From: Gelidibacter mesophilus DSM 14095
GTDB taxonomy: Bacteria > Bacteroidota > Bacteroidia > Flavobacteriales > Flavobacteriaceae
Direction: 5' to 3'
DNA: 64,000 nt
Assembly (NCBI RefSeq): GCF_000423005.1
Contig: NZ_AUHD01000014.1
Coordinates: 1 to 64,000, forward strand
Positions 47,064 through 61,122 of this stretch are shown in pieces. Both the position numbers and the translations under genes were made by a program. Every line of letters begins with the position of its first letter. The stretch's first letter is position 1. Below the pieces are notes generated by a model. It was given only the letters and a program-made list of their open reading frames with translations, had not been told where the DNA came from and ran no database searches.

Positions 47064-47849
47064 TTATTTATACCAATCCAACTGAATAACTTCAATGTCT
47101 GAATTTTCTTTAGACACAAGTGTTTTAAATTTCTTTATATCACTCATTCCATCTGTACCTCTATAATGGTAAGGATACACTTTTTTTGGTTTAAACTCCA
47201 ATACAGCACTCGCCGCACTTTCTACGGTCATCGTATAAGGCAGGTTCATGCAAACAAAGGCAATATCAATATTTTTAAGAGTTCTCATTTCAGGAATATC
47301 TTCTGTATCTCCAGAGATGTAGACTCTTTGATTTCCCAGCGTTAAAACATAGCCATTTCCTCTTCCTTTTTCGTGAAACTTTAAGGCCTTTTCCCTTAGA
47401 TTATACATAGGAACCGCTTCAATAGAAAACACGCCAAGATCCTTTAAATCACCATTTTTCATCACAATCAGTTCCTTTACTTTGGGTGCGGGCAACTTTT
47501 CTTTCACAGCTTGAGGAACTATAAGAGTCGTAGAATCCAATACCATATTTTTTAGGGTTTCGATGTCTAAATGGTCGCCATGAATATCGGTTATTAACAT
47601 ATAATCTGCTGGTTCTTGATTTTCAAAATTTGTTGCACCTCCTACAGGATCAACGTAAATAACGGTATCGTTATAGGCTAAGATCATTGTGGCATGCTCA
47701 ATTGGAATGATCGTGATGTCTTCAGGACTCGTGGTCTCATGAAGTTCATTTGCAACCTCAGAAGCTAGATTAACAGCTTTCTCAGTTGTGTTTTTACAAT
47801 TTAATATGGTAAGTGCAAAAATTGATGCAATGAGGAATTTGGATTTCAT
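47064..47849 (-). CDS. MBL-fold metallohydrolase lipoprotein
   Basis: A 261-residue predicted lipoprotein (MKSKFLIASIFALTILNCKNT, lipobox Cys18) carrying a metallo-beta-lactamase fold. Metal-binding features are ITDIHGDHLDIETL (HxDH-like, with His-Gly-Asp-His) and VYISGDTEDIPEM, with a final KVYPYHYRGTDG. These resemble the UlaG/YtkL-type branch (Lactamase_B_2/3). Substrate unknown. The frame is open upstream to 47912, but ATG 47849 gives the lipoprotein signal. A CAAACATA promoter-like box is 37 bp upstream. Confidence 0.85.
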   Translation of the reverse strand: MKSKFLIASIFALTILNCKNTTEKAVNLASEVANELHETTSPEDITIIPIEHATMILAYNDTVIYVDPVGGATNFENQEPADYMLITDIHGDHLDIETLKNMVLDSTTLIVPQAVKEKLPAPKVKELIVMKNGDLKDLGVFSIEAVPMYNLREKALKFHEKGRGNGYVLTLGNQRVYISGDTEDIPEMRTLKNIDIAFVCMNLPYTMTVESAASAVLEFKPKKVYPYHYRGTDGMSDIKKFKTLVSKENSDIEVIQLDWYK

Positions 47850-47885
47850 TTTTATGAATTTAAGTTCCTTAAAGATACTAACTTT

Positions 47886-47893
47886 CAAACATA
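47886..47893 (-). promoter_or_regulatory. Candidate -7 box for the MBL-fold gene
   Basis: CAAACATA reads TATGTTTG on the minus strand, a full match to TAnnTTTG. A TTTG (CAAA at 47910-47913) lies 16 bp further upstream, slightly closer than usual. Confidence 0.45.
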
Positions 47894-48024
47894 TTGAGAA
47901 TGTATGTAACAAATTAAGAAAATATCCTACAAATAATATAAGGAGTAATAATTTTGAAACTGATAATTTTTAACGAAATTGCTACTCATTAAATTTTATT
48001 GATCACATTTAAACCATATACGAT

Positions 48025-49374
48025 ATGTCTGATGATTTTGATTTATTAGAAACCAATTCTAACGAAAAAACAGGAAAAGTGGATGTCAATTGGGGGAAAG
48101 CCATTGATACCATGAAATCTAAATTAGCGCAAGAAGACGATCCGCAGTCCCGTCAAAAAATCCTGAATGCCACGCTTGATGATGTGGTGCATATGGCAGA
48201 GAAAGATAGAACAACGCTTTTAGATGCCATCAAGGATCTTACTGATTATCAGGACGAAGTGGGAATTATCTTTGAAAAATTCTCTTCTCTCAATCCTGAT
48301 GAGCAACGCATTATTGATGATGCCCAGAAAGCGTTAGAACGTGCTCGGATAGAATTGGAAGATGCGCGCAATAAACCGGATACTTGGTGGAATAACCTTT
48401 GGGGACGCAAAAGTAGAATCCAAAAAGAAGAACAGGAGTTTAAGGAAGCTGAAAAATTCAGGTCAGGTGCAGATAATAGAGCTAAGGCCATGTTTCAAGA
48501 GCGTATTGAAAGTGCCGATGTGCAAACGCTTTTAAGTGAATTGTCTTATAAAAGTCAAGCCGCTGTAACCCGACTAAAAAATAGGGAAGTTGAAATCAGG
48601 GAGGTTGAAGATAAGCTTCAGGTGGCCATTGTTGAGGCCACAAAAAACCATACCCGTGCTTTAGAAAAGAAGAAAGAAGTAGAAGGGAAACTCGATGAGA
48701 ATTATGCATTGTTAAGACAGGCACGTCAGGAATTGGACGAAATTGTCGATAAACAATCGGCTGATTATGCACAGGCCGTAGGGAAAGTTACCACCTTAGA
48801 ACAAAAAGTAGAAGAGTTGGAAGGCCTTAAAAATGCCTATACCACATTGTCGGCTAGTAAAGATAGTTTTGTGCATAAGCACAACCTGACCATTAAAGTA
48901 TTGACGTCTTTGCGAAGCAACTTACAAACGCATCGCGCAAAACTAAAAAGTGATACTGAAGAGCGTCTTAAATATTATGACGGCTATGTAGTGGCTTTAA
49001 AAGCACGAACAGATCAAGAATTTGCTGCTATTTTAGAGCATTTGGGAGTTAAAACAGATGAGCATATTGGTGAAACTTTAGCATCAATGCACACTGCAAG
49101 TGCCAAAGCACGTCAGGAAATGATGGAAAACATTCCAGTTCACGAAAAAGTGATGCAAGGTGTTTACAGTAGTTATGCTGAGGCTTTACAGGAAATCCGT
49201 ACGAAAGATGCCGATATCCAAAAGAATTTTGCGGAGCGTTACGGTATTGACATGAAAGAAATTTTTGAAGATTATTATAAAGCTGACGCCACTAAGCCTT
49301 CAGGAAATGACGACGCAGGAAAACCTGCCGCCGCACCAAAACGAGAAACCAATAGTGACGATTTATTGTCTTAA
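48025..49374 (+). CDS. Long coiled-coil protein of unknown function, first gene of cluster
   Basis: A 449-residue soluble protein, almost all helical. After an N-terminal region (VNWGKAIDTMKSKLAQ; HMAEKDRTTLLDAI), long heptad-rich coiled coils run from about residue 95 to 330 (for example RARIELEDARNK, KEEQEFKEAEKF, VEGKLDENYALLRQARQEL). A C-terminal helical domain contains KYYDGYVVALKARTDQEFAAILEHLGV, then ENIPVHEKVMQGVYSSYAEAL. It ends in a disordered Asp/Pro/Ala-rich tail. There is no signal peptide. I do not recognise a family with confidence; a scaffold or filament-like role is inferred from shape. It heads the co-directional run up to 57833. Confidence 0.7.
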   Translation: MSDDFDLLETNSNEKTGKVDVNWGKAIDTMKSKLAQEDDPQSRQKILNATLDDVVHMAEKDRTTLLDAIKDLTDYQDEVGIIFEKFSSLNPDEQRIIDDAQKALERARIELEDARNKPDTWWNNLWGRKSRIQKEEQEFKEAEKFRSGADNRAKAMFQERIESADVQTLLSELSYKSQAAVTRLKNREVEIREVEDKLQVAIVEATKNHTRALEKKKEVEGKLDENYALLRQARQELDEIVDKQSADYAQAVGKVTTLEQKVEELEGLKNAYTTLSASKDSFVHKHNLTIKVLTSLRSNLQTHRAKLKSDTEERLKYYDGYVVALKARTDQEFAAILEHLGVKTDEHIGETLASMHTASAKARQEMMENIPVHEKVMQGVYSSYAEALQEIRTKDADIQKNFAERYGIDMKEIFEDYYKADATKPSGNDDAGKPAAAPKRETNSDDLLS

Positions 49375-49377
49375 TAA

Positions 49378-49525
49378 ATTCCCACGAAAGTGGGAATCTC
49401 ATGAAACAAAAGATCGGTTTTTTGTTCATGGCGTTCCCACGCGAAAAGCGTGGTCAGGTTTTCCGCTGTATCTTTTTTCTGAAAAAGAAAAAAGGATGCC
49501 GCTGCAACCCTTAACGCGAATTTAA
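49378..49525. repeat. Intergenic repeat-like block with hairpins
   Basis: Contains ATTCCCAC-GAAA-GTGGGAAT (49378-49397, 8-bp stem, GNRA-type loop) and CCACGC-GAAAA-GCGTGG (49437-49453). A stretch with TTTCCGCTGTATC and GGATGCCGCTGCAACCC around a T/A-rich centre follows. None ends in a T-run, so terminator function is unlikely. The composition is unlike the AT-rich spacers elsewhere and fits a dispersed intergenic element. A variant of the first hairpin recurs at 53708-53728. Confidence 0.6.
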
Positions 49526-49584
49526 AAAAAAGCTACATTACGAATCATTCATAATTTTTCATTATTAATTTTTAATTATAAAAA

Positions 49585-50646
49585 GTGTCCATTAATCACA
49601 TAGTAACGCCATTAGATTCTGCATACCTCGACTCCAAAGAGCAGTATGTATTTTATCATAAAATGGTCGATTTTGCGCTGAAGGAATTAATAGTGAGTGC
49701 GCAGCGTGAACAACTGTGTTCCACTCAAGAAATCATTTTCTTTAAACAGTACGCTGATTTGCTGTTGTATTCCATTGAAGCCATGCGGGTCAAGTATATG
49801 TATGACGAGGAAGAAAACATGAAAGTCGATTTGACCGAATCTGGTTTTCCAAATTATTTGGAATTCCGCTATTTGTTCAATGATTTGTCCTTACGGGAAA
49901 ATTATGTCAATAAGCTCAAAGATGTGAGTGAGTTACAGGAAGAGTTTTTAGATACCTTACTGAGAAAAAAGGAGCCTATTAAAAAAAGCAGATTGTTTCA
50001 AGCAGCTTCCATTGTTTATTATACTTCCGTTGAGCAAAAATTTATCTTTAATCGCTTTGTACAAGGTAAAATCATAAAAGCGCCTGAAGATTCAGGCGCC
50101 GAATTTATGACCAGTTGGAGCTTTTTTGATGTTGGTTGTAACCGACCTTTTGTCTGTTATATGTACTTTGATTTTGAAGGACCGAATGTTGAAAGTATCA
50201 AAGAACAAATCTATGAGGTTTTGAAAAATACGGCAGACCGAGACATGAACTTGGATGTTATGGCTTATGGAATTGATAGAAAATTAAAGGATATCAAACC
50301 AAAACACATCAAACGCATTGATTTAGGGCCTTTCCACAATGTATTTGCCAAAGATGAAAACCAGATTACCCATACTATTTTAAAAAGTATTGCAGATAAA
50401 GTGGTGCCATTGGAATCTTATGCACTTTCCTTAAGTGTTGACGAAGTATTCTCAGGCAGCGAATTTAGTGAAGGCGGCTATTTCTCAAAACAAACCTTGC
50501 AAAAATGGAACGAACCCATTCATAAAAGTTATGTATTGGCGCCACATCGCATCATTCAGTTATTGTACAGTAAAACACCGGAAATCATGAATAGGTTGGC
50601 AAAACCACCAATTCAGATTGCGGATTTGAAAATAAGTAAAGTTTAA
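49585..50646 (+). CDS. Cluster protein of unknown function (353 residues)
   Basis: A soluble 353-residue protein starting with GTG 49585 (MSINHIVTPLDSAYLDS); no ATG is near. A helical N-terminal half contains QREQLCSTQEIIFFKQYADLLLYSIEAMRVKY. The C-terminal half is mixed, with FFDVGCNRPFVCYMYFDFEG and a SLSVDEVFSGSEFSEGGYFSKQTLQKW segment. No membrane segment or known catalytic motif is seen. I do not recognise a family. It lies between the coiled-coil gene and the AAA+ gene, which makes a partner or adaptor role plausible by context only. Confidence 0.68.
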   Translation: MSINHIVTPLDSAYLDSKEQYVFYHKMVDFALKELIVSAQREQLCSTQEIIFFKQYADLLLYSIEAMRVKYMYDEEENMKVDLTESGFPNYLEFRYLFNDLSLRENYVNKLKDVSELQEEFLDTLLRKKEPIKKSRLFQAASIVYYTSVEQKFIFNRFVQGKIIKAPEDSGAEFMTSWSFFDVGCNRPFVCYMYFDFEGPNVESIKEQIYEVLKNTADRDMNLDVMAYGIDRKLKDIKPKHIKRIDLGPFHNVFAKDENQITHTILKSIADKVVPLESYALSLSVDEVFSGSEFSEGGYFSKQTLQKWNEPIHKSYVLAPHRIIQLLYSKTPEIMNRLAKPPIQIADLKISKV

Positions 50647-50740
50647 AATAGAATAAAGACCGCTGCGCTTATAGAATCAAAAATCAAGATTTTTAATTGT
50701 GAAGAATTGGAAGTTTTTTTTAAATAAGCAAAGAAAAATT

Positions 50741-50890
50741 CCTTCCCTTTTTAAGGGAAGGTGGATTAAGTTTCCGTAGTGGAATTTAAGACGGAAGGGT
50801 TTGAATCAACCACCTCGTCTTCATCCCCTTATCTTGGGATGAATCCACTCCTCCTTTGAAAGGATGAGAATTTATAGAGATTATAAAATT
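50741..50890. repeat. Intergenic repeat-like block with hairpins
   Basis: CCTTCCCTT (50741-50749) pairs with AAGGGAAGG (50753-50761). Further on are CAACCACCTCGTCTTCATCCCC and a CCTCCTTTGAAAGGATGAG hairpin. Such purine/pyrimidine-rich, partly palindromic blocks occur between genes in many Bacteroidota. It occupies most of the 319-bp spacer before the AAA+ gene. Confidence 0.55.
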
Positions 50891-50904
50891 TAAATATTCG
50901 TGTA

Positions 50905-50926
50905 CCCGCCTGAACGGACGGGCAGG
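50905..50926. repeat. GC-rich palindromic repeat, copy 1
   Basis: CCCGCC-TGAA-CGGACGGGCAGG. On the minus strand it reads CCTGCCCGTCCG followed by GGCGGG. The same two blocks occur at 53666-53695 with a longer spacer. It is strikingly GC-rich for this DNA and resembles REP-type elements. Confidence 0.75.
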
Positions 50927-50965
50927 TTCGTGGCTAAATTCAATAGATAAATCATAAATCAACCA

Positions 50966-52924
50966 ATGCAACAAAACTCAACATTTCCCATAAAACAAAA
51001 TGAACTCCATATGCTTCGCGATGAGGCGGCTTCGTATCTTAAAAGTATTCAATGGGAGCAAGGACAACGTGCCAAAAATAAAGATAAGGACGCAAAGGAC
51101 GATTCTATTCTTCTTTATTTGTCAAGAGCCAATAACGGCTCTAATATGGCAGAGACCACATCGGTGTCCAAAACAATTTTAGAGCTTAAAAAGCGGTTGC
51201 TTCCAGATTCCATCGCTATTCCAGTTTTGCTTAACCAAACCTTATATGCCGTTCAGGAAGGGTTGACATTAGGCATCTGGATCAAGGATAGTTATTATAA
51301 TGCTTCGGGATTATCCAGTTTAAATGAGCGTAAAGCTTCATTGGACAGCATGGGCAAAAGAGAATACGAAAGCAAAATGCATACTGCAACAGCATTTATG
51401 TTGTTTTCAGCCGCCTATAATATTTTACACAATCTAAAGCCCTATGCTTCCGACGATTTGAGCGTTATGAAGCAGAAATTCGCAGGCATTCCTGAAGTTT
51501 CGTTTTTATCGCCTTTAAAAGGTGTGGCTTGTACCTTATTTTATTATGACAAATATTTGGGACATCCCGATATTATTAAAAGTGATAAGGATGTGGCCGA
51601 TTTCACTGTGGTTTTCTTTGAAGCATTGATTGATGAAATCCAAATGAGAAAATCAACTTTGGAGCATCAGGAAACCATTGTGGACAGGACTTACAAATTG
51701 GAGCATTCCGAATTTGCAATTTCAGGATGGAACAACGTCTTTGCCGGTGCTGCAAAAAGTATAGAATTCAACAAAATTAAGTTTGAGCAGATCGTTGGAA
51801 ACAAAGACGCCAAACATTTTGCACGCCGTTTAACGGAGCGCATGTTGAGCTATGATGTTACGGCAAAGAAGAATCCGTTTCAGGAATTGGGCGGATTTAT
51901 GCCCGTTTTTATGGGCTACGGTATCCCAGGAACGGGAAAAAGTATGCTTATTGCCGCCATTGCTACAAAATTAAAAGAGCATTGTGACCATTTGGAAATT
52001 CCGTTTTTATTTCATCCTATGCCCGACACCTTGATTTCAACATTTCAAGGAGGTTCTGCCGAGAAAATGGTGGAATGGATGAAACCCATGCAAGATCCTT
52101 CAAAATTGATTTTTGCACCTATTGATGATGCTGAAAACAATCTGCAAGAACGGACTGCCCAAGGGGTTTCTGCAGGTGTTAAAGAGGTTATTGGGGTGTT
52201 TTTGAGATATACGGAAGGTGCTTATGCCGTAAATTATGGTAATAGTTCCATCGGATTATTTACTAATTTGCCGGAAATGCTGGACAAGGCAGTGATTTCT
52301 CGTGTACAGGGACGTTTTAAAATTGATGGCGCACGCACTGAAAACGATTTTTTGGATCAAGATCATTTATGGTGGCGTAAGTTGCAAAAAACGATGCCAG
52401 ATTTCATAAACATGAAAGATCCAAACAATTATAACTATCTTCAAGATCAGGGCTTGGCCAAAAATATGGGTGAAATTTTGAAATCTGTCGATAAACCTTC
52501 AGAAGAACGCGTGCATGCTGTTTATGATAAGGTTGAAAAGCAGTATCAAACCAATGAACACCAGTTTTACGCCAATCTCTACAAAGAAATGCAAAAGGTT
52601 TTTCCTTTCTTCTCTTCAAGGGATGTTCGGAATATCCAATCGGCTATTTCATTGCGTTTAACCGATTTTGATTTGGAAACTTCATGGTTCGAAAATCCTG
52701 AGGTGTATTTTAAACAAGCATACGAAACAAAGTTTAATATGTTGCAAGAACTCATGCGTTCTAATATGAAAGGGCTTAACTTTTCTGAAATAAGACGTCA
52801 GGAAGTTGTCCGTTATTTGGATAATGTTGCCACTATTGCAGATACTGATTTCAAACGACAGGTCGATTCGAGAGTCAACCAACTCAATATAGAAATGGAA
52901 GCGCGAAGAAAGTTTGACAATTAA
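50966..52924 (+). CDS. AAA+ family ATPase of unknown function
   Basis: A 652-residue soluble protein. A large helical N-terminal half (about 1-300) has no recognised domain. The AAA+ module follows: Walker A GIPGTGKS at residues 319-326, Walker B LIFAPIDDAEN around 381-391, a sensor-1-like GLFTNLPEM, and ISRVQGRF that can supply the arginine finger. The Walker B reads DDAE rather than the common DE. A C-terminal helical region carries DVRNIQSAISLRLTDFDLETSW, like an AAA+ lid, then a long tail. By architecture it should form an ATP-driven oligomer. The substrate may be a cluster protein, such as the coiled-coil protein, but this is inference. Confidence 0.8.
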   Translation: MQQNSTFPIKQNELHMLRDEAASYLKSIQWEQGQRAKNKDKDAKDDSILLYLSRANNGSNMAETTSVSKTILELKKRLLPDSIAIPVLLNQTLYAVQEGLTLGIWIKDSYYNASGLSSLNERKASLDSMGKREYESKMHTATAFMLFSAAYNILHNLKPYASDDLSVMKQKFAGIPEVSFLSPLKGVACTLFYYDKYLGHPDIIKSDKDVADFTVVFFEALIDEIQMRKSTLEHQETIVDRTYKLEHSEFAISGWNNVFAGAAKSIEFNKIKFEQIVGNKDAKHFARRLTERMLSYDVTAKKNPFQELGGFMPVFMGYGIPGTGKSMLIAAIATKLKEHCDHLEIPFLFHPMPDTLISTFQGGSAEKMVEWMKPMQDPSKLIFAPIDDAENNLQERTAQGVSAGVKEVIGVFLRYTEGAYAVNYGNSSIGLFTNLPEMLDKAVISRVQGRFKIDGARTENDFLDQDHLWWRKLQKTMPDFINMKDPNNYNYLQDQGLAKNMGEILKSVDKPSEERVHAVYDKVEKQYQTNEHQFYANLYKEMQKVFPFFSSRDVRNIQSAISLRLTDFDLETSWFENPEVYFKQAYETKFNMLQELMRSNMKGLNFSEIRRQEVVRYLDNVATIADTDFKRQVDSRVNQLNIEMEARRKFDN

Positions 52925-52953
52925 TGATGATATGGTAATTTTTTAGGATTTTA

Positions 52954-52988
52954 GACAACAGACAACAGACAACAGACAACAGACAACA
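52954..52988. repeat. GACAACA tandem heptamer array (5 copies) upstream of NUDIX gene
   Basis: Five perfect copies of GACAACA, ending 9 bp before ATG 52998 and occupying the ribosome-binding region. The same heptamer appears six times at 56087-56128 before another start codon. Confidence 0.92.
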
Positions 52989-52997
52989 GACAAGACA

Positions 52998-53585
52998 ATG
53001 TTAGACAACATAAAAAACATCACCTTTAAAACACTTTCCAAAGCTTGGGCTACTTTGTTGGAAATCAATTATGATTACCAGTTCAAAGATGGCACCTGGA
53101 AACGTGTTTCTAGAGAAAGTTATGATCGCGGACATGGCACCGGAATTTTATTATATAATGTAGAAAAAGGGACGATTATTTTAACAAAACAATTCAGGAT
53201 GCCAATTTACCATACCAACAAAGATGAAGGTATGTCTATTGAAGTCTGCGCTGGGGCTATAGATGATAATGATTTACCAGAATCTACTATAATTAGAGAA
53301 GTGGAAGAGGAAGTAGGATATAAGGTTAAAGAGGTTAAAAAGATAATGGAAACTTATATGTCTCCTGGCGCCTTAACTGAAAAGATGTATTTATTTGTTG
53401 CGCGCTATTCAGAGGATATGAAAGTCAGTGAAGGCGGAGGATTGGCAAGCGAACATGAAGAAATTGAAGTGATGGAAATACCTTTTTCGAAAGCCTTAAA
53501 AATGATGGAATCTGGAGAGATTTTAGATGCGAAAACGATTATTCTGTTGCAATATGCTCAGATAAATAGTTTAATTAAGAATTAA
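52998..53585 (+). CDS. NUDIX hydrolase (NudK/ADP-ribose pyrophosphatase-like)
   Basis: A 195-residue NUDIX enzyme. It starts MLDNIKNITFKTLSKAWATL. The Nudix box is AGAIDDNDLPESTIIREVEEEVGYKV, with REVEEEVG for metal binding; the Glu normally at the fifth position after Gly is Asp. Upstream VEKGTIILTKQFRMPIY and downstream YMSPGALTEKMYLFVARY resemble GDP-mannose/ADP-ribose pyrophosphatases. It probably hydrolyses a nucleoside-diphosphate-linked sugar. It is the only gene of the run with a clear enzymatic family besides the ATPase. The last residues and stop lie within the AATTAAG array. Confidence 0.85.
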   Translation: MLDNIKNITFKTLSKAWATLLEINYDYQFKDGTWKRVSRESYDRGHGTGILLYNVEKGTIILTKQFRMPIYHTNKDEGMSIEVCAGAIDDNDLPESTIIREVEEEVGYKVKEVKKIMETYMSPGALTEKMYLFVARYSEDMKVSEGGGLASEHEEIEVMEIPFSKALKMMESGEILDAKTIILLQYAQINSLIKN

Positions 53586-53618
53586 GAATTAAGAATTAAG
53601 AATTAAGAATTAAGAATT
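53573..53618. repeat. AATTAAG heptamer array (6 copies) across the NUDIX stop codon
   Basis: Six perfect AATTAAG units (53573-53614) and a partial seventh. The first two units contain the last codons (KN) and the TAA of the NUDIX gene, so the reading frame ends inside the array. Confidence 0.92.
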
Positions 53619-53629
53619 GTTTTTCTTTA

Positions 53630-53664
53630 GAAACAAGAAACAAGAAACAAGAAACAAGAAACAA
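53630..53664. repeat. GAAACAA heptamer array (5 copies)
   Basis: Five perfect GAAACAA units directly before the GC-rich palindromic repeat at 53666. Another 7-bp period of different sequence. Confidence 0.92.
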
Positions 53665-53665
53665 G

Positions 53666-53695
53666 CCTGCCCGTCCGCAGCGAAGCGAAGGCGGG
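53666..53695. repeat. GC-rich palindromic repeat, copy 2
   Basis: CCTGCCCGTCCG, a 12-bp spacer (CAGCGAAGCGAA) and GGCGGG. Its outer blocks are those of the repeat at 50905-50926 in the opposite orientation. It sits directly after the GAAACAA array. A hairpin ATTCCCA-CTTTCA-TGGGAA at 53708-53725 follows and overlaps the first possible ATG of the next gene. Confidence 0.75.
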
Positions 53696-53731
53696 AAACA
53701 AAAAGAGATTCCCACTTTCATGGGAAATAAT

Positions 53732-54967
53732 ATGGAAAAACTAAAAGCAGCGCATTTATTTAGAAACGATCTCATCCCCATTAGCGGGAAATTGGTAGAG
53801 CGTTACAATCAGTGCCTAAAAAAATTAGGTCTGACTGTAACAAAGCTCACCAGTTTTTCAATTGACGGATTAGGGTGGAGCCCTGAGATTGCTGAAGAGA
53901 AAAAGGAAATCCACTATCTTAATAATGGAGAGGCCAATCCAAATGCGATTATCATCACGCCTCTTCAAAAAGGGAAACCAGTATATGTTCCTTTTCATAC
54001 TTTTGATAGAGATATGATGCAACATATTTTTCGCAATCATGGTGATAGAATCAATGATATTACAAGAGATTGTGCCATTTGTGTGGATTTTGACCAATAT
54101 ATAGATGCATTTTATGAACCATTGGATGTATTAAAATATAAGGATATTTCCATTAGCTTTAAACTGATCAACGATTTGGACAAAGTTCAAAAGCTACAGT
54201 TTCAGCTGGTTGATACATTTAAGCAAGGGAACAATTTTATTGATGAAAATTTACATCAGCAACTGTTGGATTCGGCAAAGACCTACGGCGACCTAAGACA
54301 TCGAAATTTAGAGCTTCATGAGTTGTATTTCTCAACGGATTCTTTTTACACCCGTGCGTTTAACGGAGTTTTTGTTTTACGTGATTTTATAACGCCAATT
54401 GTTGTTTTCGAAGATGAAAAATGGCACAAAGAAGCCATAAAGGACACCTCACATGACGTACTGATCTATCACATTTCACAACCAGAATTGATGGATAAAC
54501 TACGAGATCATTTGATTATTGAATATGATTTAGACGCCGTTGTGAAAACTCCACGTTATGAACGTATTAAAAAATTTATGTTTTCTCAATTATTGAAGGA
54601 ACCCCAACATCCTATAAAAGATATTTTAGATGATAAGGTATTGTTTAAAGGATATTTGAACAAACTGTCCATTGAAAATCGAAAAAAAGTAATGAGTGTT
54701 GAATTGTACCTCGAAAAAATGGAAGTCAACAATCAGCATAAATTGGCAGATATTGTTGATGTTGAGCTTTTTGAGGCCTTACATCAACCACATTCGTCCT
54801 TAAATGCAAAACATCAAGATTTAATTTGGAAATTGCTGGTTAATATCTCGTCTTTAGATGTGTTGTTCATGTATTGGTACGACAAAGAACAATTTTATAA
54901 AAATTATAAAGATTGGGATGATTCATTGAAAGATTGGGTAATTGGAACGATTCGTAACAATATATAA
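53732..54967 (+). CDS. Cluster protein of unknown function (DUF6638-like size)
   Basis: A 411-residue soluble protein starting MEKLKAAHLFRNDLIPISGKLVERYNQCLKKLG. An upstream in-frame ATG at 53720 lies inside a hairpin, so 53732 is preferred. Blocks include GKPVYVPFHTFDRDMMQHIFRNH, RDCAICVDFDQYIDAFYEPLDV and YTRAFNGVFVLRDFITPIVVFEDEKWH. The C-terminal third is helical (PIKDILDDKVLFKGYLNKLS onward). No known catalytic motif or membrane segment is visible. It may belong to a Bacteroidota-restricted family that I recall as DUF6638, but I am not sure. It is part of the co-directional run. Confidence 0.68.
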   Translation: MEKLKAAHLFRNDLIPISGKLVERYNQCLKKLGLTVTKLTSFSIDGLGWSPEIAEEKKEIHYLNNGEANPNAIIITPLQKGKPVYVPFHTFDRDMMQHIFRNHGDRINDITRDCAICVDFDQYIDAFYEPLDVLKYKDISISFKLINDLDKVQKLQFQLVDTFKQGNNFIDENLHQQLLDSAKTYGDLRHRNLELHELYFSTDSFYTRAFNGVFVLRDFITPIVVFEDEKWHKEAIKDTSHDVLIYHISQPELMDKLRDHLIIEYDLDAVVKTPRYERIKKFMFSQLLKEPQHPIKDILDDKVLFKGYLNKLSIENRKKVMSVELYLEKMEVNNQHKLADIVDVELFEALHQPHSSLNAKHQDLIWKLLVNISSLDVLFMYWYDKEQFYKNYKDWDDSLKDWVIGTIRNNI

Positions 54968-54976
54968 AGTAAGAAG

Positions 54977-54997
54977 TTGAAAGCACGAAGCATGAAG
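54977..54997. repeat. Degenerate heptamer array, left flank of S23-type gene
   Basis: TTGAAAG, CACGAAG, CATGAAG in tandem (consensus NNNGAAG). An inverted counterpart lies at 55454-55488. The two flanks match over about 28 bp when one is reversed and complemented, with several mismatches and one gap. Confidence 0.75.
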
Positions 54998-55023
54998 TTT
55001 TATATCTTTATGATTAAAAAAGC

Positions 55024-55377
55024 ATGCAGTTTAAATTTGAAAATTTATTGATTTGGCAAAGAGCAATGGATTTAGGTGAAGATATGAATCAATTGGCTTA
55101 TAAGTTTCCTAAAGAAGAGTTGTATAATTTGTCGTCACAAATTAGAAGAGCAGCCGACTCAGTCGCATTAAATATTTCAGAAGGTTCTATTCTACAGTCT
55201 GATGCAGAATATAGAAAGTTTTTAGGCTATGCAATTCGATCAATTGCTGAAGTGGTGACCTGTTTACACAAAGCCAATAGAAGAAATTATATGACTGATG
55301 ATAGTTTCTTAAAATATTATAAGGCCTGTTTTGATTTAATGAATATGACGATTGCTTTCAGAAATAGAATAAATTAG
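55024..55377 (+). CDS. S23-type four-helix-bundle protein (23S rRNA IVS protein family)
   Basis: A 117-residue four-helix protein of the family named after the ORF in 23S rRNA intervening sequences (IVP/S23; also related to Avd). It shows FENLLIWQRAMDLGEDMNQLAYKFP, YNLSSQIRRAADSVALNISEGS, YRKFLGYAIRSIAEVVTCLHKANRRNY and FDLMNMTIAFRNRIN. Avd of diversity-generating retroelements has this fold, but no reverse transcriptase is nearby. Its biochemical role is unknown; RNA or nucleic-acid binding is suspected for the basic helical surface. It is intact, while the related copy at 23337-23693 has an in-frame stop. Inverted heptamer arrays bracket it, suggesting insertion as a small cassette. Confidence 0.88.
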   Translation: MQFKFENLLIWQRAMDLGEDMNQLAYKFPKEELYNLSSQIRRAADSVALNISEGSILQSDAEYRKFLGYAIRSIAEVVTCLHKANRRNYMTDDSFLKYYKACFDLMNMTIAFRNRIN

Positions 55378-55453
55378 AAATGAGGTATGGAGAATTAAAA
55401 TCAAAACTCTTGTCTTCAATTACTTACAATTATAAATAAATATAAATCCTTTA

Positions 55454-55488
55454 CTTAAAGCTCCATGCTTCAAGCTTCAAACTTTTAA
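55454..55488. repeat. Degenerate heptamer array, right flank of S23-type gene
   Basis: CTTAAAG, CTCCATG, CTTCAAG, CTTCAAA, CTTTTAA in tandem. Reversed and complemented these follow the NNNGAAG pattern of the left flank (54977-54997). It ends 2 bp before the ATG at 55491. Confidence 0.75.
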
Positions 55489-55490
55489 TT

Positions 55491-56015
55491 ATGACCTTAG
55501 AAATTATCGTTTTCATCGGCTCAATACTATTTGGAATCCTGCTTTACTGGCGCGAATCTACTGGTAACGGATTGTTTCGTTTTTTCAATAAAATGATGTA
55601 TTCCAAAAAACTTCAAATGTCACCAATGGATCCTACAGGGTTTCTATACCAGCAAAAATTTATTTTACGTTTGGTGTTCATTTCTATGATTTTTCTTGTG
55701 GGAATTTTAATTGCGCGCTTTTTGATTCCAATCGATATTGCGACTATTTCAGTGTTTGCTTCGAGTATAGTAGGCACACTTTTAGGGACTTATATTGGCG
55801 GATTTATTTTAAAATCGGAAAAGGTCATTGATGAACATAGTGAGTCCTTTGAAGAGAAATTTGACAATGTTATTGACCAGGGAAGGGATTTTGTTCAAGA
55901 TATCAGATCTAGAGATCCAAAAGTCGTAGAAGAAGCGAAAAAAGAAATTGAAGAAGATCCTGAATTACCAAAAAAGAGTGCTAGAGAACGATTGAAGGAT
56001 AAAGGACTAATGTAA
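55491..56015 (+). CDS. Cluster membrane protein (174 residues)
   Basis: Three predicted transmembrane helices: about residues 4-22 (EIIVFIGSILFGILLYW), 58-82 (FILRLVFISMIFLVGILIARFLI) and 86-107 (VFASSIVGTLLGTYIGGFIL). A charged C-terminal tail (DEHSESFEEKFDNVIDQG onwards) is probably cytosolic and helical. No family was recognised. The tail might dock the soluble cluster proteins to the membrane, by inference only. Confidence 0.7.
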   Translation: MTLEIIVFIGSILFGILLYWRESTGNGLFRFFNKMMYSKKLQMSPMDPTGFLYQQKFILRLVFISMIFLVGILIARFLIPIDIATISVFASSIVGTLLGTYIGGFILKSEKVIDEHSESFEEKFDNVIDQGRDFVQDIRSRDPKVVEEAKKEIEEDPELPKKSARERLKDKGLM

Positions 56016-56026
56016 AATTAGAATTC

Positions 56027-56061
56027 TCGATTGAAGATTGACGATTTTTGATTGAGGACTA
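56027..56061. repeat. Degenerate heptamer array (NNGATTG)
   Basis: TCGATTG, AAGATTG, ACGATTT, TTGATTG, AGGACTA with a period of 7. It lies just after the 174-residue membrane gene and 25 bp before the GACAACA array. Confidence 0.6.
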
Positions 56062-56086
56062 GGGAGTGAAATTTTATTTTTATTTT

Positions 56087-56128
56087 GACAACAGACAACA
56101 GACAACAGACAACAGACAACAGACAACA
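56087..56128. repeat. GACAACA tandem heptamer array (6 copies) upstream of a start codon
   Basis: Six perfect copies of GACAACA, ending 7 bp before ATG 56136. A frame through the array from TTG 56085 would add the residues TTDNRQQ repeatedly, but ATG 56136 (MIKNYWNRGSRQ) looks like the real start of a membrane protein. Confidence 0.92.
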
Positions 56129-56135
56129 GAAAAAA

Positions 56136-57833
56136 ATGATAAAGAACTATTGGAATAGAGGAAGCAGACAAAAAACCATCACTATTATCGGCGCTTTGGT
56201 TTTACTATTACTATTGTTTTTCCTTCGTGATGATTACCAACCGTTTCTATTGTTTATAAGAAAATTCTTTTTTATAATTTTAGTGATTGGTTTGGTATTG
56301 TTTTTTGGGTTGCGAAGTTTTAGAAACTCCGTTGGGGTTGGGCGTCGCATAGGTGTTTTAGCACTTTTAATTTTGTTTTTTGGTGTGCTTTATGTTGTTG
56401 GTTGGCATTTTAAGATGTACGATTACATGAAAACTTACAATGTTTTTAAAGACTTAAATAAAGTGGAGATTAATGAGTTGCCACTGACCCAAAACGAACG
56501 CATTCAGCCCTTACGAAATATTTTTTCTATGGCCAATGAATCGGTTGGGGAGACCAAAGATGTGTCTTTGCCCCATTTAGTGAGGGTAGATGGCGAAAAC
56601 AAATGGACCATGGCCATTCAGCCTTCAGAAAAATACACCATGCAGCAAATCAGCGAGAATACCGAAGAGATATTCTCGGTTTCCAGTACGTCACCATTTC
56701 CAAGGTTTTCCAGTGAAAATCGGATTCCTGTAACTTTTTCTATTGGAGAATCCTTGAAATTCAGTCGCAATACCTACAATGCTGTGGTGCAACGTTTCAA
56801 TATTTTTCAGTTGTTTACTATGGAACCTAGTGATACGTTTTATATGAAAAACGATTCTGGAGATTGGGTAGAAGTGGTAAGTTTGATCAAATGGAAAGGT
56901 TTCTTTTTCCCATATCCTACATTTGGTGGCGTGATGGTTATTGACAGTGGAAAACACGATTTTAATGATTATGTAGAACGTGTTTTGATTGGAAAAGGTA
57001 CCTACATCAGTGCTGAACAAATGAAAAACCATCCATTTTTGACCAAGCAGAATACGTTGTCAGAAAAGGTATCACGGTTGCAAGCAGAATCGTTAAAATT
57101 TTTGGGCGGATTTACGGATCCGTTACCATGGAAAATGCAAACTGCCGTAAAAATTCCAGATATGCCAGATGATCAAAATGAACAGCCTTTTGTGACCGAT
57201 TTCAATTTTAGTGATGTGGATACCAAAACCTACAGCGGCTTGTACCATTGGTTCGGATTGGAGCCCATTGGGGAAGAACGCACTAGTTTAGCTTACAGCG
57301 TCTTTGTTCCGGCAGATGGTACCGACAAATTGTTCTATTATGATCATGCTGGCAAAAAACAAGGATATGCAGGAGTTTCTGCAATGCCATTAAAAATGAT
57401 TGAATCACGTAAAGAATATGATTGGTCGGTTAATAAACCTGTTGAGTTTAGACCTTATATTAAAGATATTGCAGGTAGGAGACGCATGTTCTTTTTAGGT
57501 ACTGTCTCTGCTGTAAAAGAAGACTCGAAAAAGTTTGATGGTTCTGCAACTCCCGATTTGGCCCTGATTGATAGCGAATATCGCGATGTTATCTGGATTG
57601 ATGTGAAACACCCTAGTCAATGGGATAAAACCGTTTACGATCAATTAAATGAAGCTTGGAGAGCCAGTGAAGGTATTGGTTATTTTTATGATGAAGTCAA
57701 AAACACATCTGATTTGGACATGATGCAAAGGGAAATGGATTCTATTAATGCCATACCAAAAGTTAACGCCAATGACGTTGAGATTAACAGATTACAAAGT
57801 CGGATTGATTCTTTGAAATCGGTGGGAAATTGA
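56136..57833 (+). CDS. Cluster membrane protein with large extracytoplasmic domain (565 residues)
   Basis: Three predicted N-terminal membrane helices (ITIIGALVLLLLLFFL; FLLFIRKFFFIILVIGLVLFF; RIGVLALLILFFGVLYVVGW) are followed by a soluble domain of about 450 residues on one side of the membrane. Blocks include SLPHLVRVDGENKWTMAIQPSEKYTMQQI, SLIKWKGFFFPYPTFGGVMVID, YSGLYHWFGLEPIGEERTSLAYSVFVPADG and AGRRRMFFLGTVSAVKEDSKKFDGSATPDLALID. I do not recognise a family. It is the last gene of the run and the largest membrane component. Confidence 0.72.
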   Translation: MIKNYWNRGSRQKTITIIGALVLLLLLFFLRDDYQPFLLFIRKFFFIILVIGLVLFFGLRSFRNSVGVGRRIGVLALLILFFGVLYVVGWHFKMYDYMKTYNVFKDLNKVEINELPLTQNERIQPLRNIFSMANESVGETKDVSLPHLVRVDGENKWTMAIQPSEKYTMQQISENTEEIFSVSSTSPFPRFSSENRIPVTFSIGESLKFSRNTYNAVVQRFNIFQLFTMEPSDTFYMKNDSGDWVEVVSLIKWKGFFFPYPTFGGVMVIDSGKHDFNDYVERVLIGKGTYISAEQMKNHPFLTKQNTLSEKVSRLQAESLKFLGGFTDPLPWKMQTAVKIPDMPDDQNEQPFVTDFNFSDVDTKTYSGLYHWFGLEPIGEERTSLAYSVFVPADGTDKLFYYDHAGKKQGYAGVSAMPLKMIESRKEYDWSVNKPVEFRPYIKDIAGRRRMFFLGTVSAVKEDSKKFDGSATPDLALIDSEYRDVIWIDVKHPSQWDKTVYDQLNEAWRASEGIGYFYDEVKNTSDLDMMQREMDSINAIPKVNANDVEINRLQSRIDSLKSVGN

Positions 57834-57926: not shown

Positions 57927-59402
57927 CTATCCAAATCGCTTCTGTAAATCTGCAACAACCATTTCAGTCTGCTTGTTTTTGTTTTTTCGTTCCAGTAGTA
58001 TTGGTGGCGCTTGTCTTACTTTACAATCGGCAATGGCACAGCGCTCGCAGGTCACCCCAACATCTTGCGACTTTATTTTTGGATCTTTTAGGAAAGCGAG
58101 TTTCCGTTGCAATTGTTTGTTCATTAATAAACCAATGCTGATACTTCTGTAGTGATGCTCTCTAAAAGGATCCTTTGTTGCGGAGGATAATACCAGGTAT
58201 TGCATCCCATCATCAGGATAGTTTGAAATCTGCAAATCAAAGACATGATCTTCTTTTGTGTTACTAATGGTTTTTAGAACTTTTAAGGAAACCCAACGTC
58301 GGCAATAATGCTCATTCGTTTCATTGGCGCGCGGCGAATGTTGGTGTGCCAAATGCAATTCTTTCTTGAGATGAAATCGTTCACTGCCTGCACGATGTGT
58401 AAAGCGTAAAAAAAACAAATCCTGAAGATTGAATTCTTTGGGAAGCACATTGGTCAAGCGTTGGTAAAAGGATTCTGGAGATGCGTTAAAACCATCGATA
58501 ATTTTTAAAAGTAGGGCTTCATCAAATGTTTCTTTTTCAAATAACGTGGATAATTGTGCTGTAATTGTTGCTTTAGGTAAAAGAAGGGCGCCTGCAAAAT
58601 AAGAGGCATAAAAATTATTCAGAACTTGGTCAAAATTTTCGAATTTGATCCAGGAAAAGGTGTAAAGACGTTCTTTATACTGTAAATAATTATAGGCAAT
58701 TTCTTTTGCATATATAAACGTGCGTTGTGCATCATCCATTTGGTTGGCGAGCAAAAGTGTCTTCGTTTTTGGAACAAAAACGGAGCGTAAGGTGTCTAAA
58801 GATTGATGTTTGTCCAATTCAGTTTCATTAAATGAATAGCCGTATTCCTCAATGAGAATTTCCTTTAATTCGCTGGAATCAATTGGTTTTTCCAAATCAA
58901 TTTGGTAGGCTTCAGCAAACTTTAAAACGGCCTGTTCAATTTCTTCAAAATAATTATGATTGGCCTGCTGAAAGGATCGTACAGAAGCTAAATAAAAACT
59001 TTCCCGACTAAAATTATAATTCTGCGCAATTTCAATGATCGTACTTATAAAGGCATTGACCTTTGCTGGTGCATTGGAGACGATATCGATGAGCGTACTT
59101 TCTTGTATTCCAAAGAGATCCAATGGAATTTCCTTTAAAATTTTTGACTTTAAAATATCACCAATAGGAGCGAGGTTTTTGTCAAGCTTTAAAGAGACCA
59201 TTTGATCGTAAGGCACTTCTAACTTTTCTGAAAGAATGGCAATTTTATCGGGTTTTGGATATTTTTTTCCCTTTTCAATTTCGTTTAAATAGGACTTTGA
59301 TAGTCCTGATAATTTGGATAGTCCAAAGAGAGAAAGGTTCCTTTCAGTCCTTATCTGCTTTAGCTTTAGTCCAAAAATGAGTTTGATATAGTCTTCTTCC
59401 AT
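57927..59402 (-). CDS. XRE/ImmA-IrrE/DUF2083 regulator, RamB-like
   Basis: A 491-residue transcription factor. An N-terminal Cro/CI helix-turn-helix (KLKQIRTERNLSLFGLSKLSGLSKSYLNEIEKGKKYP) is followed by an ImmA/IrrE-like domain (about 200-330). A C-terminal DUF2083 domain with conserved cysteines ends the protein (TCERCAIADC). This is the layout of RamB and PrpC2-type regulators that control acetate, glyoxylate-shunt and methylcitrate genes and sense acyl-CoA or related metabolites. It is divergent from aceB-aceA; three 17-bp operator-like repeats lie in the 120-bp gap. Autoregulation and control of aceBA are inferred. Confidence 0.85.
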   Translation of the reverse strand: MEEDYIKLIFGLKLKQIRTERNLSLFGLSKLSGLSKSYLNEIEKGKKYPKPDKIAILSEKLEVPYDQMVSLKLDKNLAPIGDILKSKILKEIPLDLFGIQESTLIDIVSNAPAKVNAFISTIIEIAQNYNFSRESFYLASVRSFQQANHNYFEEIEQAVLKFAEAYQIDLEKPIDSSELKEILIEEYGYSFNETELDKHQSLDTLRSVFVPKTKTLLLANQMDDAQRTFIYAKEIAYNYLQYKERLYTFSWIKFENFDQVLNNFYASYFAGALLLPKATITAQLSTLFEKETFDEALLLKIIDGFNASPESFYQRLTNVLPKEFNLQDLFFLRFTHRAGSERFHLKKELHLAHQHSPRANETNEHYCRRWVSLKVLKTISNTKEDHVFDLQISNYPDDGMQYLVLSSATKDPFREHHYRSISIGLLMNKQLQRKLAFLKDPKIKSQDVGVTCERCAIADCKVRQAPPILLERKNKNKQTEMVVADLQKRFG

Positions 59403-59472: not shown

Positions 59473-59502
59473 TGTTTTTTTAAAAAGTTATTTCTATCAT
59501 TG
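59472..59502 (+). promoter_or_regulatory. Candidate aceB promoter
   Basis: TTG at 59472-59474 and TATCATTG at 59495-59502 are 20 bp apart, close to the Bacteroidota TTG-N17-23-TAnnTTTG pattern with one mismatch. The -33 TTG touches the end of the operator palindrome, so a bound regulator could block or recruit RNA polymerase. Confidence 0.5.
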
Positions 59503-59523
59503 TACTATCAAAATAACAACATT

Positions 59524-61122
59524 ATGGAAAACAACATTTTAAGCTTACCGAAACTTCAATTTTCGAAAGATGTAAAAAATTACTATCCGGAAATCTTAAC
59601 GGATGAAGCATTAGAATTTTTGTCGGCATTACACGAAAAATTTAATCAGGATCGTCTAGGATTATTAAAATCTAGAGAAGAACAGCAGCAACAATTCGAT
59701 AAAGGCGCTTTTCCAGATTTCCCAGCAGAAACTAAAAGTATCAGAGAAGGGGACTGGGTGGCAGGAGCAATTCCGAATGATTTATTGGATAGACGTGTAG
59801 AAATTACAGGTCCTGTTGACAGAAAGATGGTAATTAACGCCCTAAATTCTGGAGCTAAAACGTTTATGGCAGACTTGGAGGACAGTAATGCACCAACTTG
59901 GAAAAATGCTATTGAAGGACAACAGAACCTTATTGATGCTAACAAAAGAACCATTTCGCTTCACGATGTCAAACGGGATAAGTTCTATAAATTGAATGCA
60001 GATCTTGCCGTTTTATTAGTGCGTCCAAGAGGTTTGCATCTTAATGAACGCCATATCCTAATCAATAAGGAAGAGGCTTCAGGGAGTTTAGTTGACTTTG
60101 GACTGTATGTTTTTCATAATACTAAAACCTTGTTAGAGAATAATACTGCTCCTTATTTTTATTTGCCAAAATTGGAGCATTATACAGAGGCTAGATGGTG
60201 GAATGACGTTTTCGAATTTGCACAAGCGTATTTAGAAGTTCCAAAAGGGACATTTAAAGCTACTGTGTTAATAGAAACTATAACGGCTAGTTTTCAATTG
60301 GACGAAATTATCTATGAACTAAAAGATCATATTGTTGGATTGAATTGCGGACGTTGGGATTATATTTTTTCCTACATCAAGAAATTCAGAAATCATGACA
60401 ATTTTGTGGTCCCAAACCGTGATCAAGTGACCATGACCTCACCATTTATGGCTGCTTATTCAAAACTGGTCATCCAATGTTGCCATAAACGAGGCATTCA
60501 TGCCATTGGTGGAATGGCAGCCCAAATTCCAATCAAGAACAATCCAGAGGCCAACAAGGCAGCCTTGGAAAAGGTTAGGGTTGATAAAGAAAGAGAAGTT
60601 AAAAATGGACATGATGGCACTTGGGTGGCACATCCAGATTTGGTTAAAGTGGCGATGGACGAATTTGACAGGCACATGCCAACAGCCAATCAGTTTCATG
60701 TAACAAGAGATGATGTTACTATTACAAAAGAAGATTTGGTAGAACTTCCAATAGGCACCATCACCGAACAAGGGATTAGAAAAAACATCAATATTGGACT
60801 TTTATATACTGAAGCTTGGTTGAGAGGTCATGGTGCAGTGGCGCTTTATAATCTGATGGAGGATGCAGCAACCGCCGAAATCTCAAGAACGCAGTTATGG
60901 CAATGGCTGAAGAATGAAGTGGTTTTGGAAGATGGACAAACGTTTTCAAGAGCACTTTACGATACTATTTTTCAAGATGAAGTTGAAAAACTCGTCAAAG
61001 AATTTGGAGAGGAAAACATCAAAAACACAAAATTCAATTTAGCGATAGAATTATTCAACAAATTGGTAACCAATGCCGATTTCGAAGAATTTTTAACCTT
61101 ACCAGCCTATCAATATATTTAA
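59524..61122 (+). CDS. aceB: Malate synthase A
   Basis: A 532-residue malate synthase that condenses glyoxylate and acetyl-CoA. It has family blocks AGPVDRKMVINALNSGAKTFMADLEDSNAPTW, VLLVRPRGLHLNERHI, KATVLIETITASFQLDEIIYEL and GLNCGRWDYIFSYIKKFR (catalytic Arg/Glu region). HDGTWVAHPDLVKVAM and LRGHGAVALYNLMEDAATAEISR follow. ATG 59524 (MENNILSLPK) is preferred over 59500. It is followed after 84 bp by aceA, giving the glyoxylate bypass operon controlled from the divergent region. Confidence 0.95.
   Translation: MENNILSLPKLQFSKDVKNYYPEILTDEALEFLSALHEKFNQDRLGLLKSREEQQQQFDKGAFPDFPAETKSIREGDWVAGAIPNDLLDRRVEITGPVDRKMVINALNSGAKTFMADLEDSNAPTWKNAIEGQQNLIDANKRTISLHDVKRDKFYKLNADLAVLLVRPRGLHLNERHILINKEEASGSLVDFGLYVFHNTKTLLENNTAPYFYLPKLEHYTEARWWNDVFEFAQAYLEVPKGTFKATVLIETITASFQLDEIIYELKDHIVGLNCGRWDYIFSYIKKFRNHDNFVVPNRDQVTMTSPFMAAYSKLVIQCCHKRGIHAIGGMAAQIPIKNNPEANKAALEKVRVDKEREVKNGHDGTWVAHPDLVKVAMDEFDRHMPTANQFHVTRDDVTITKEDLVELPIGTITEQGIRKNINIGLLYTEAWLRGHGAVALYNLMEDAATAEISRTQLWQWLKNEVVLEDGQTFSRALYDTIFQDEVEKLVKEFGEENIKNTKFNLAIELFNKLVTNADFEEFLTLPAYQYI

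Follow-up and report, generated by a model that had tools for sequence, protein, structure and literature searches.

Do the eight co-directional genes at positions 48025 to 57833 of the first 64,000 nucleotides of contig NZ_AUHD01000014.1 from Gelidibacter mesophilus DSM 14095 (Flavobacteriaceae; this whole stretch is called the window) encode one ATP-driven machine, or do they only share a locus? A preliminary description of the stretch had likened the run, with its coiled-coil protein, AAA+ ATPase and membrane proteins, to ATP-driven membrane machines. We consider it very probable that six of the genes specify one AAA+ machine, in which four soluble proteins form the engine and act together with a membrane module that can be exchanged. 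That they are one unit is well supported; its substrate and purpose we infer. The eight open reading frames were found where the preliminary description had placed them, all on the plus strand:

48025..49374, + strand: cc449, core gene 1, coiled-coil protein of 449 residues, no Pfam cut-off reached
49585..50646, + strand: u353, core gene 2, soluble protein of 353 residues, no Pfam family
50966..52924, + strand: AAA, core gene 3, classical AAA+ ATPase of 652 residues, PF00004
52998..53585, + strand: NUDIX hydrolase, optional, TIGR00052 (YffH/AdpP family), between AAA and DUF6638
53732..54967, + strand: DUF6638 protein, core gene 4, 411 residues, PF20343
55024..55377, + strand: S23/IVP four-helix-bundle protein, optional, PF05635 and TIGR02436
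55491..56015, + strand: tm174, three membrane helices predicted by hydropathy, predicted cytosolic tail
56136..57833, + strand: tm565, three N-terminal membrane helices predicted by hydropathy, predicted periplasmic domain of ~475 residues

The start of the DUF6638 gene is ambiguous (53720, giving 415 residues, or 53732, giving 411), as is that of tm565 (TTG at 56085, giving 582 residues, or ATG at 56136). The NUDIX and S23-type identities proposed earlier held, with scores of 156.5 bits against TIGR00052 (cut-off 79.55) and 101.7 against PF05635 (cut-off 33.8). The ATPase scored 37.5 bits against PF00004, above the gathering score of 21.2, and the 411-residue protein 102.5 against PF20343 (cut-off 27; the Vibrio and Sinorhizobium relatives described below reached 201.6 and 256). 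None of the non-enzymatic proteins had been recognised before. This changed for one of them, a member of the named Pfam family DUF6638, and stood for the 449-, 353-, 174- and 565-residue proteins, which reached no Pfam or NCBIfam cut-off. Comparison of the six core proteins and the NUDIX hydrolase found no homology. For the two membrane proteins, one with a large domain outside its helices, charge bias (positive-inside) predicted an external location of the ~475-residue domain in tm565 and a cytosolic one of the tm174 tail. The conserved object consists of six genes, cc449, u353, AAA, DUF6638, tm174 and tm565, to which the NUDIX and S23 genes are optional additions.

Conservation of the six genes in Flavobacteriaceae

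Of 299 genomes of the family, 94 encode AAA (E ≤ 1e-20), each in a single copy and, apart from the window itself, with 67–93% identity to the protein of the window. In the 93 AAA-positive genomes besides that of the window, the loci were searched for the other genes by tblastn. The genes for cc449, u353 and DUF6638 were each detected in 92 loci, tm174 in 89 and tm565 in 88, and all six core genes lay on one strand and in one order in 87. The expectation that the 449-, 353-, 652-, 411-, 174- and 565-residue genes stay together across genera was thus confirmed. The neighbouring and optional genes were less constant: EttA was present in 62 loci (61 at ≥80% identity), NUDIX in 45, MBL in 31 and S23 in 11. 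Whenever NUDIX was present, it occupied the position between AAA and DUF6638 (45/45), and 7 of the 11 S23 hits fell between DUF6638 and tm174. Among the exceptions to the common arrangement, cc449 lay on a separate contig in L086 (G426) and tm565 on a separate contig in L088 (G472) and L229 (G349), the contig ended in L208 (G511), and in L219 (G088) DUF6638 stood at the end of the examined stretch, so that tm565 may lie beyond it. A true split was seen in L084 (G318), where one long contig carried cc449, u353 and AAA at ~1.83 Mb and tm565 at 2.68 Mb, ~850 kb away.

Co-occurrence was also followed over 249 genomes of the family. The cc449 gene was found in 78, all AAA-positive, and tm565 in 79, hence AAA, cc449 and tm565 were co-present in 78 of the 249 with one disagreement. 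The remaining 16 of the 94 AAA genomes carry cc449 beside AAA and therefore lie outside this sample. In G370 (C4:175175-176896), a tm565 gene 71% identical to that of the window was accompanied by neither a cc449 match nor AAA, possibly as a relic or in independent use. In a sample of 247 genomes from the phylum, 12 AAA matches were obtained at E ≤ 0.001; four were full-length, all within the same family as the window and including its own genome. The eight weak matches (L005–L012, E 6e-5 to 1e-3, one in the window's family) were rejected as relatives of the unit because they covered the ATPase domain only, L007 showing in addition a weak 43-residue N-terminal stretch. DUF6638 scored above its cut-off in 4 of 296 genomes of the phylum, all of them AAA-positive.

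On one flank the unit is adjoined by a homologue of EttA, whose best relatives in the plasmid collection were Bacteroides-type (72%), in keeping with a member of the Bacteroidota, and by an MBL-fold hydrolase on the opposite strand (window 47064-47912), the protein with a relative in 31 of the 93 family loci. On the other flank lie a gene for a RamB-like regulator (window 57927-59402; ScfRs and M78 domains, below the cut-off of the RamB model) and, divergent from it, a gene at 59500-61122 that we judged by eye to encode malate synthase. The regulator and the putative malate synthase gene are outside the conserved unit.

The core and its membrane modules in Proteobacteria

A tblastn search of plasmid records with AAA retrieved 10 records at 26–28% identity, 9 of them covering at least 80% of its length (Vibrio, 4; Sinorhizobium, 4; Shinella and Rhizobium). 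Used as single tblastn queries against the same records, cc449 and tm565 gave no match and DUF6638 gave 6. In the Vibrio locus L109 and the Sinorhizobium locus L110 the gene order was coiled coil, u353-like, AAA and DUF6638, with an endonuclease-domain gene and an insertion sequence (IS) element separating AAA from DUF6638 in L110. Profiles built from the family only were used in a search of 16 proteins. The E-values for Vibrio and Sinorhizobium were 2.8e-80 and 6.9e-63 for AAA, 4.7e-23 and 2e-18 for u353, 1.7e-24 and 7.7e-51 for DUF6638, and 1.6e-9 and 8.9e-5 for the coiled coil, the Sinorhizobium coiled coil being the weakest link (76% by hhalign).

A larger proteobacterial set consisted of the best 80 of 496 relatives from a genome collection, ranked by similarity to the Vibrio protein: one Halomonas and 79 titled with alphaproteobacterial genera or groups. 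The profiles for this set also included L109 and L110. The u353 gene was found in 80 of the 80 loci, DUF6638 in 79 and the coiled coil in 77; the four core genes were complete in 76, with the same order and strand in all 76. Three incomplete loci (L111, L171, L181) end at a contig edge and L179 is without the coiled coil. Since the 80 loci were picked by likeness to the Vibrio protein, they are no census; among alphaproteobacterial genomes DUF6638 passed its cut-off in 5 of 241, and among gammaproteobacterial ones in 1 of 232, both counts including the centre genome. Between the Proteobacteria (Alpha- and Gamma-) and the window's phylum the core proteins share ~16–28% identity, and the four soluble proteins are a conserved unit over the two phyla.

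The gap between AAA and DUF6638 is an insertion-prone site. In the window it holds the NUDIX gene. A small endonuclease-domain gene lies near it in L110 (L110:15914-17659), together with an IS4-type element, and members of one cluster of such genes occur in 17 of the 80 loci from Proteobacteria. The Vibrio parahaemolyticus and V. vulnificus loci L109, L206 and L207 (CP099927, NZ_CP015514, NZ_CP097357) lie on elements of 0.88–0.94 Mb labelled as plasmids. There the four-gene core adjoins mfd in a near-identical local gene order, L109 also having secA; a literature search on these large elements found nothing.

The membrane proteins differ between the lineages. After DUF6638, a DUF1523 gene was found in 41 and a DUF2333 gene in 38 of the 80 proteobacterial loci, and 36 of the 41 DUF1523 loci also encode an 88-residue two-helix protein. 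A membrane module lay downstream of the core in 79 of the 80, the sole exception being L181, cut by its contig. No homology was found between tm174 or tm565 and the 88-residue protein, DUF1523 or DUF2333 (best probability 4.8%). Mapped on a tree built from 59 AAA proteins, the distribution of the three module types is explained by two changes, the minimum, although placement is unsure around the long Vibrio and inter-phylum branches; the nesting of Halomonas among Rhodobacterales-type AAA proteins suggests transfer. In the window the tail of tm174 ends with SARERLKDKG, and the pattern SARxR[LFMI]K[DE]KG closes it in 54 of 59 proteins. DUF1523 and DUF2333 are mentioned in passing in the accessible parts of two articles (PMC10783040, PMC5256989). 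According to part of the latter, the DUF2333 gene of Pseudomonas fluorescens MFE01 adjoins a NUDIX hydrolase gene (PMC5256989), a likeness to the NUDIX gene in the window unit that may be coincidence.

A classical AAA+ ATPase and its soluble partners

The ATPase of the window has Walker A at residues 317-326, pore loop 1 (STFQGGS) at 358-364, Walker B at 387-390, where the DDAE noted in the preliminary description was indeed present, the sensor 1 Asn at N434 and two arginines, R446 and R450. An alignment of 145 rows was compiled from 143 different proteins (the window, 60 family and 82 proteobacterial). Invariant in all rows were Walker A (GxGxPGTGK), pore loop 1 ([FY]QGxS), the sensor Asn and the two Arg after it. 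Walker B read DDID in 78 rows, DDAE in 61 and DDVD in 6, with Asp at the position of the catalytic Glu throughout. A catalytic Glu (DE) is usual in Walker B, though the PF00004 model does not require it, and BCS1 likewise has Asp at this position. An alignment to a VCP-like ATPase paired the Asp with the Glu of IDEID and the pore loop with MSKYYGQS/LSKWVGES.

The nearest solved sequences to AAA in Protein Data Bank (PDB) searches were of the VCP, Rpt4 (proteasomal Rpt) and Vps4 types. With VCP/Cdc48, Rpt and Vps4 it shares the PF00004 domain, Walker A, an aromatic pore loop 1, the sensor 1 Asn and arginine fingers. It differs from them in the Asp that replaces the catalytic Glu in all rows, in an N-terminal half without a matched family and in three dedicated partners without a described function. 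Its motifs, among them arginine fingers and a pore loop of the threading type, place AAA with the classical AAA ATPases, and its sequence carries the parts of a ring ATPase that would thread a polypeptide through its pore. In MoxR systems, too, an AAA+ is accompanied by soluble helpers and by membrane proteins. The earlier comparison with them was not supported, because AAA had its best match in PF00004, no MoxR model matched at E ≤ 1, no VWA match was found among the core genes, and the nearest solved sequences were those named above. The Sinorhizobium AAA of the unit may be SMc02733, going by gene numbers, an assumption that was not used in the analysis. In the accessible part of one article SMc02733 of Sinorhizobium is listed with a ChvI-bound fragment (PMC3687685).

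In cc449, conservation is highest in the C-terminal half (residues ~270-410), and an aromatic segment, WWNNLWGRK, stands at 121-129. The segment was considered as an amphipathic one, and the idea was rejected: the most hydrophobic 18-mer overlapped it in 9 of 67 and 3 of 59 motif-holding proteins. As this overlap is rare, membrane insertion of the segment is not claimed. A PDB sequence search with cc449 gave generic coiled coils only. TelA (PF05816) came into question by its similar size and helical build and a short-motif resemblance seen by eye. It was rejected, since TelA had no match at E ≤ 10 in the genome of the window, hmmsearch was negative, and hhalign with 4 TelA proteins gave <1% probability, compared with 97% when the two branches of cc449, that of the Proteobacteria and that of the family, were set against each other.

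The AlphaFold2 model of u353 (pLDDT 83.9, pTM 0.83) has a helical N half and a beta-rich C half; the model tentatively suggests a T-fold-like domain in the latter (residues ~168-339). Pfam searches with 32 u353 members gave weak matches only. PDB sequence searches found no solved relative of u353 (best E 0.057), and the best match of DUF6638 had E 1.4. Against a viral fold library, u353 reached a TMq of ≤0.16 among the 50 matches listed.

Proposed mechanism and rival explanations

What could such a unit do? We propose that the AAA+ is a remodeller in the cytosol, served by partners of its own and by a lineage-specific membrane module, a specific mechanism to which we give a nearly even chance. 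The AAA+ would be a hexamer whose N-terminal ~260 residues dock cc449, and cc449 would be either its substrate or, at the inner membrane face, its scaffold. The u353 and DUF6638 proteins may serve as dedicated adaptors or regulators. The membrane module (here tm174 and tm565) would tether the machine and would sense the envelope or be remodelled in it, the conserved cytosolic tail of tm174 being a possible peptide for docking. With the energy of ATP, the machine would take cc449 assemblies at the membrane apart or load them anew; given the Asp in place of the catalytic Glu, hydrolysis might be slow or gated.

That the six genes act as one machine is favoured by their synteny in the family, by the co-presence of AAA, cc449 and tm565 across it and by G318, which keeps all three though its unit is split. 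The constant core order and the module after it in Proteobacteria, the minimal number of module changes on the tree and the invariant motor motifs point the same way. Several observations weigh against it. Synteny within one family is partly due to shared ancestry, and intergenic gaps frequently exceed 100 bases, so that a single transcript is not implied. Correlations of protein distances over 39 loci were 0.55–0.77 among the six proteins and 0.47–0.65 with EttA; because these ranges overlap, they add little. The Asp of Walker B may mean weak hydrolysis. The gene after DUF6638 in Vibrio is mfd and no small membrane protein follows (the upstream genes there were not helix-scanned), hence a link to the membrane is not universal. 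If ancestry and the wide gaps were the whole explanation, independent housekeeping genes would share a locus by inheritance and there would be no machine. We regard this as very improbable in view of a four-gene order that Alpha- and Gammaproteobacteria share with the window's phylum at such low identity, and of the genes retained in the split unit of G318. A less easily dismissed, though still unlikely, explanation is a maturation chaperone, in which the AAA+ and its soluble helpers would assemble or insert tm565, DUF1523 or DUF2333, the module being client and not tether. BCS1 and MoxR systems mature a client, and BCS1 shares the Asp at the catalytic Glu position. In 79 of the best 80 proteobacterial loci and in 88 of the 93 family loci the core is followed by a membrane protein whose outside part is predicted to be large, G370 has tm565 without a cc449 match, and clients may exist alone, as other organisms are also mentioned as having DUF2333 and DUF1523. 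A chaperone, however, should retain its client, whereas the three modules are without detectable homology, and the Vibrio core has no membrane protein directly after it.

The preliminary description had offered ESCRT/PspA-like systems as an example of the machine layout. The layout itself is supported by the threading pore loop, the arginines and the module after the core (79/80), but neither this example nor the MoxR one was supported. A true ESCRT-III/Vps4-type system, with cc449 as a divergent ESCRT-III/PspA polymer and AAA as its Vps4, would explain the combination of a coiled coil, a classical AAA with Vps4-type pore loop and arginines, and membrane partners. We nevertheless find it improbable, the judgement resting on sequence and not on the fold of cc449. 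The proteins of the window and their Vibrio and Sinorhizobium counterparts gave no PspA_IM30, Snf7 or MIT match at E ≤ 1, nor was there any among the family matches listed (25 of 50) for 22 coiled-coil proteins; the MIM1 pattern occurred in none of the 59 tm174 tails, and AAA scored 17.2 bits against the CdvC/Vps4 model NF041006 (cut-off 650). On these grounds kinship to ESCRT-III/PspA was not supported by sequence. The closest published idea found is that of bacterial PspA/Snf7 proteins with AAA+ neighbours, where a coiled-coil protein, a classical AAA+ and membrane proteins are likewise together; cc449 differs in having no PspA/Snf7 match, and the four-gene core was not seen in the accessible part of that article (PMC11237479). 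Little credence is also given to an anti-phage or other conflict system. It would fit the patchy spread (AAA in 94 of 299 family genomes, DUF6638 in 5 of 241 alphaproteobacterial genomes, centre included) and weak PADLOC matches to IetA (AAA, 1.8e-6), JetC (cc449, 0.002) and a 2TM effector (tm174, 0.0087). IetAS pairs the IetA ATPase with the IetS protease; the IetA match on AAA covered residues 318-523 only and the core genes were without a protease match. Against a conflict system speak the 67–93% identity and single copy of AAA across the family, the EttA neighbour retained at ≥80% identity in 61 of 93 loci, and the viral searches, which gave no full-length AAA relative among the viral-contig matches listed (at least 7 partial) and no match in phage records.

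Literature searches, with a coverage that excludes most subscription papers and bioRxiv preprints, found no description of the four-gene unit. It may tentatively be seen as an undescribed class of AAA+ machine common to Bacteroidota and Proteobacteria, where a ring ATPase with a slow cycle would work a coiled coil at the inner membrane via two new soluble cofactors, one T-fold-like and possibly ring-forming, the membrane module being swapped and the engine kept. Conservation of the four genes across two phyla at ~16–28% identity marks a real cellular function, and the exchangeable membrane module offers three natural versions of one engine for comparison. The unit gives a tentative context to three domains of unknown function in Pfam (DUF6638, DUF1523 and DUF2333), and two further families, for which no Pfam cut-off is reached, are defined by it. 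Should its target indeed be a coiled-coil assembly at the membrane, bacteria would have one more ATP-driven way to remodel membrane or envelope, in addition to PspA and ESCRT-III.

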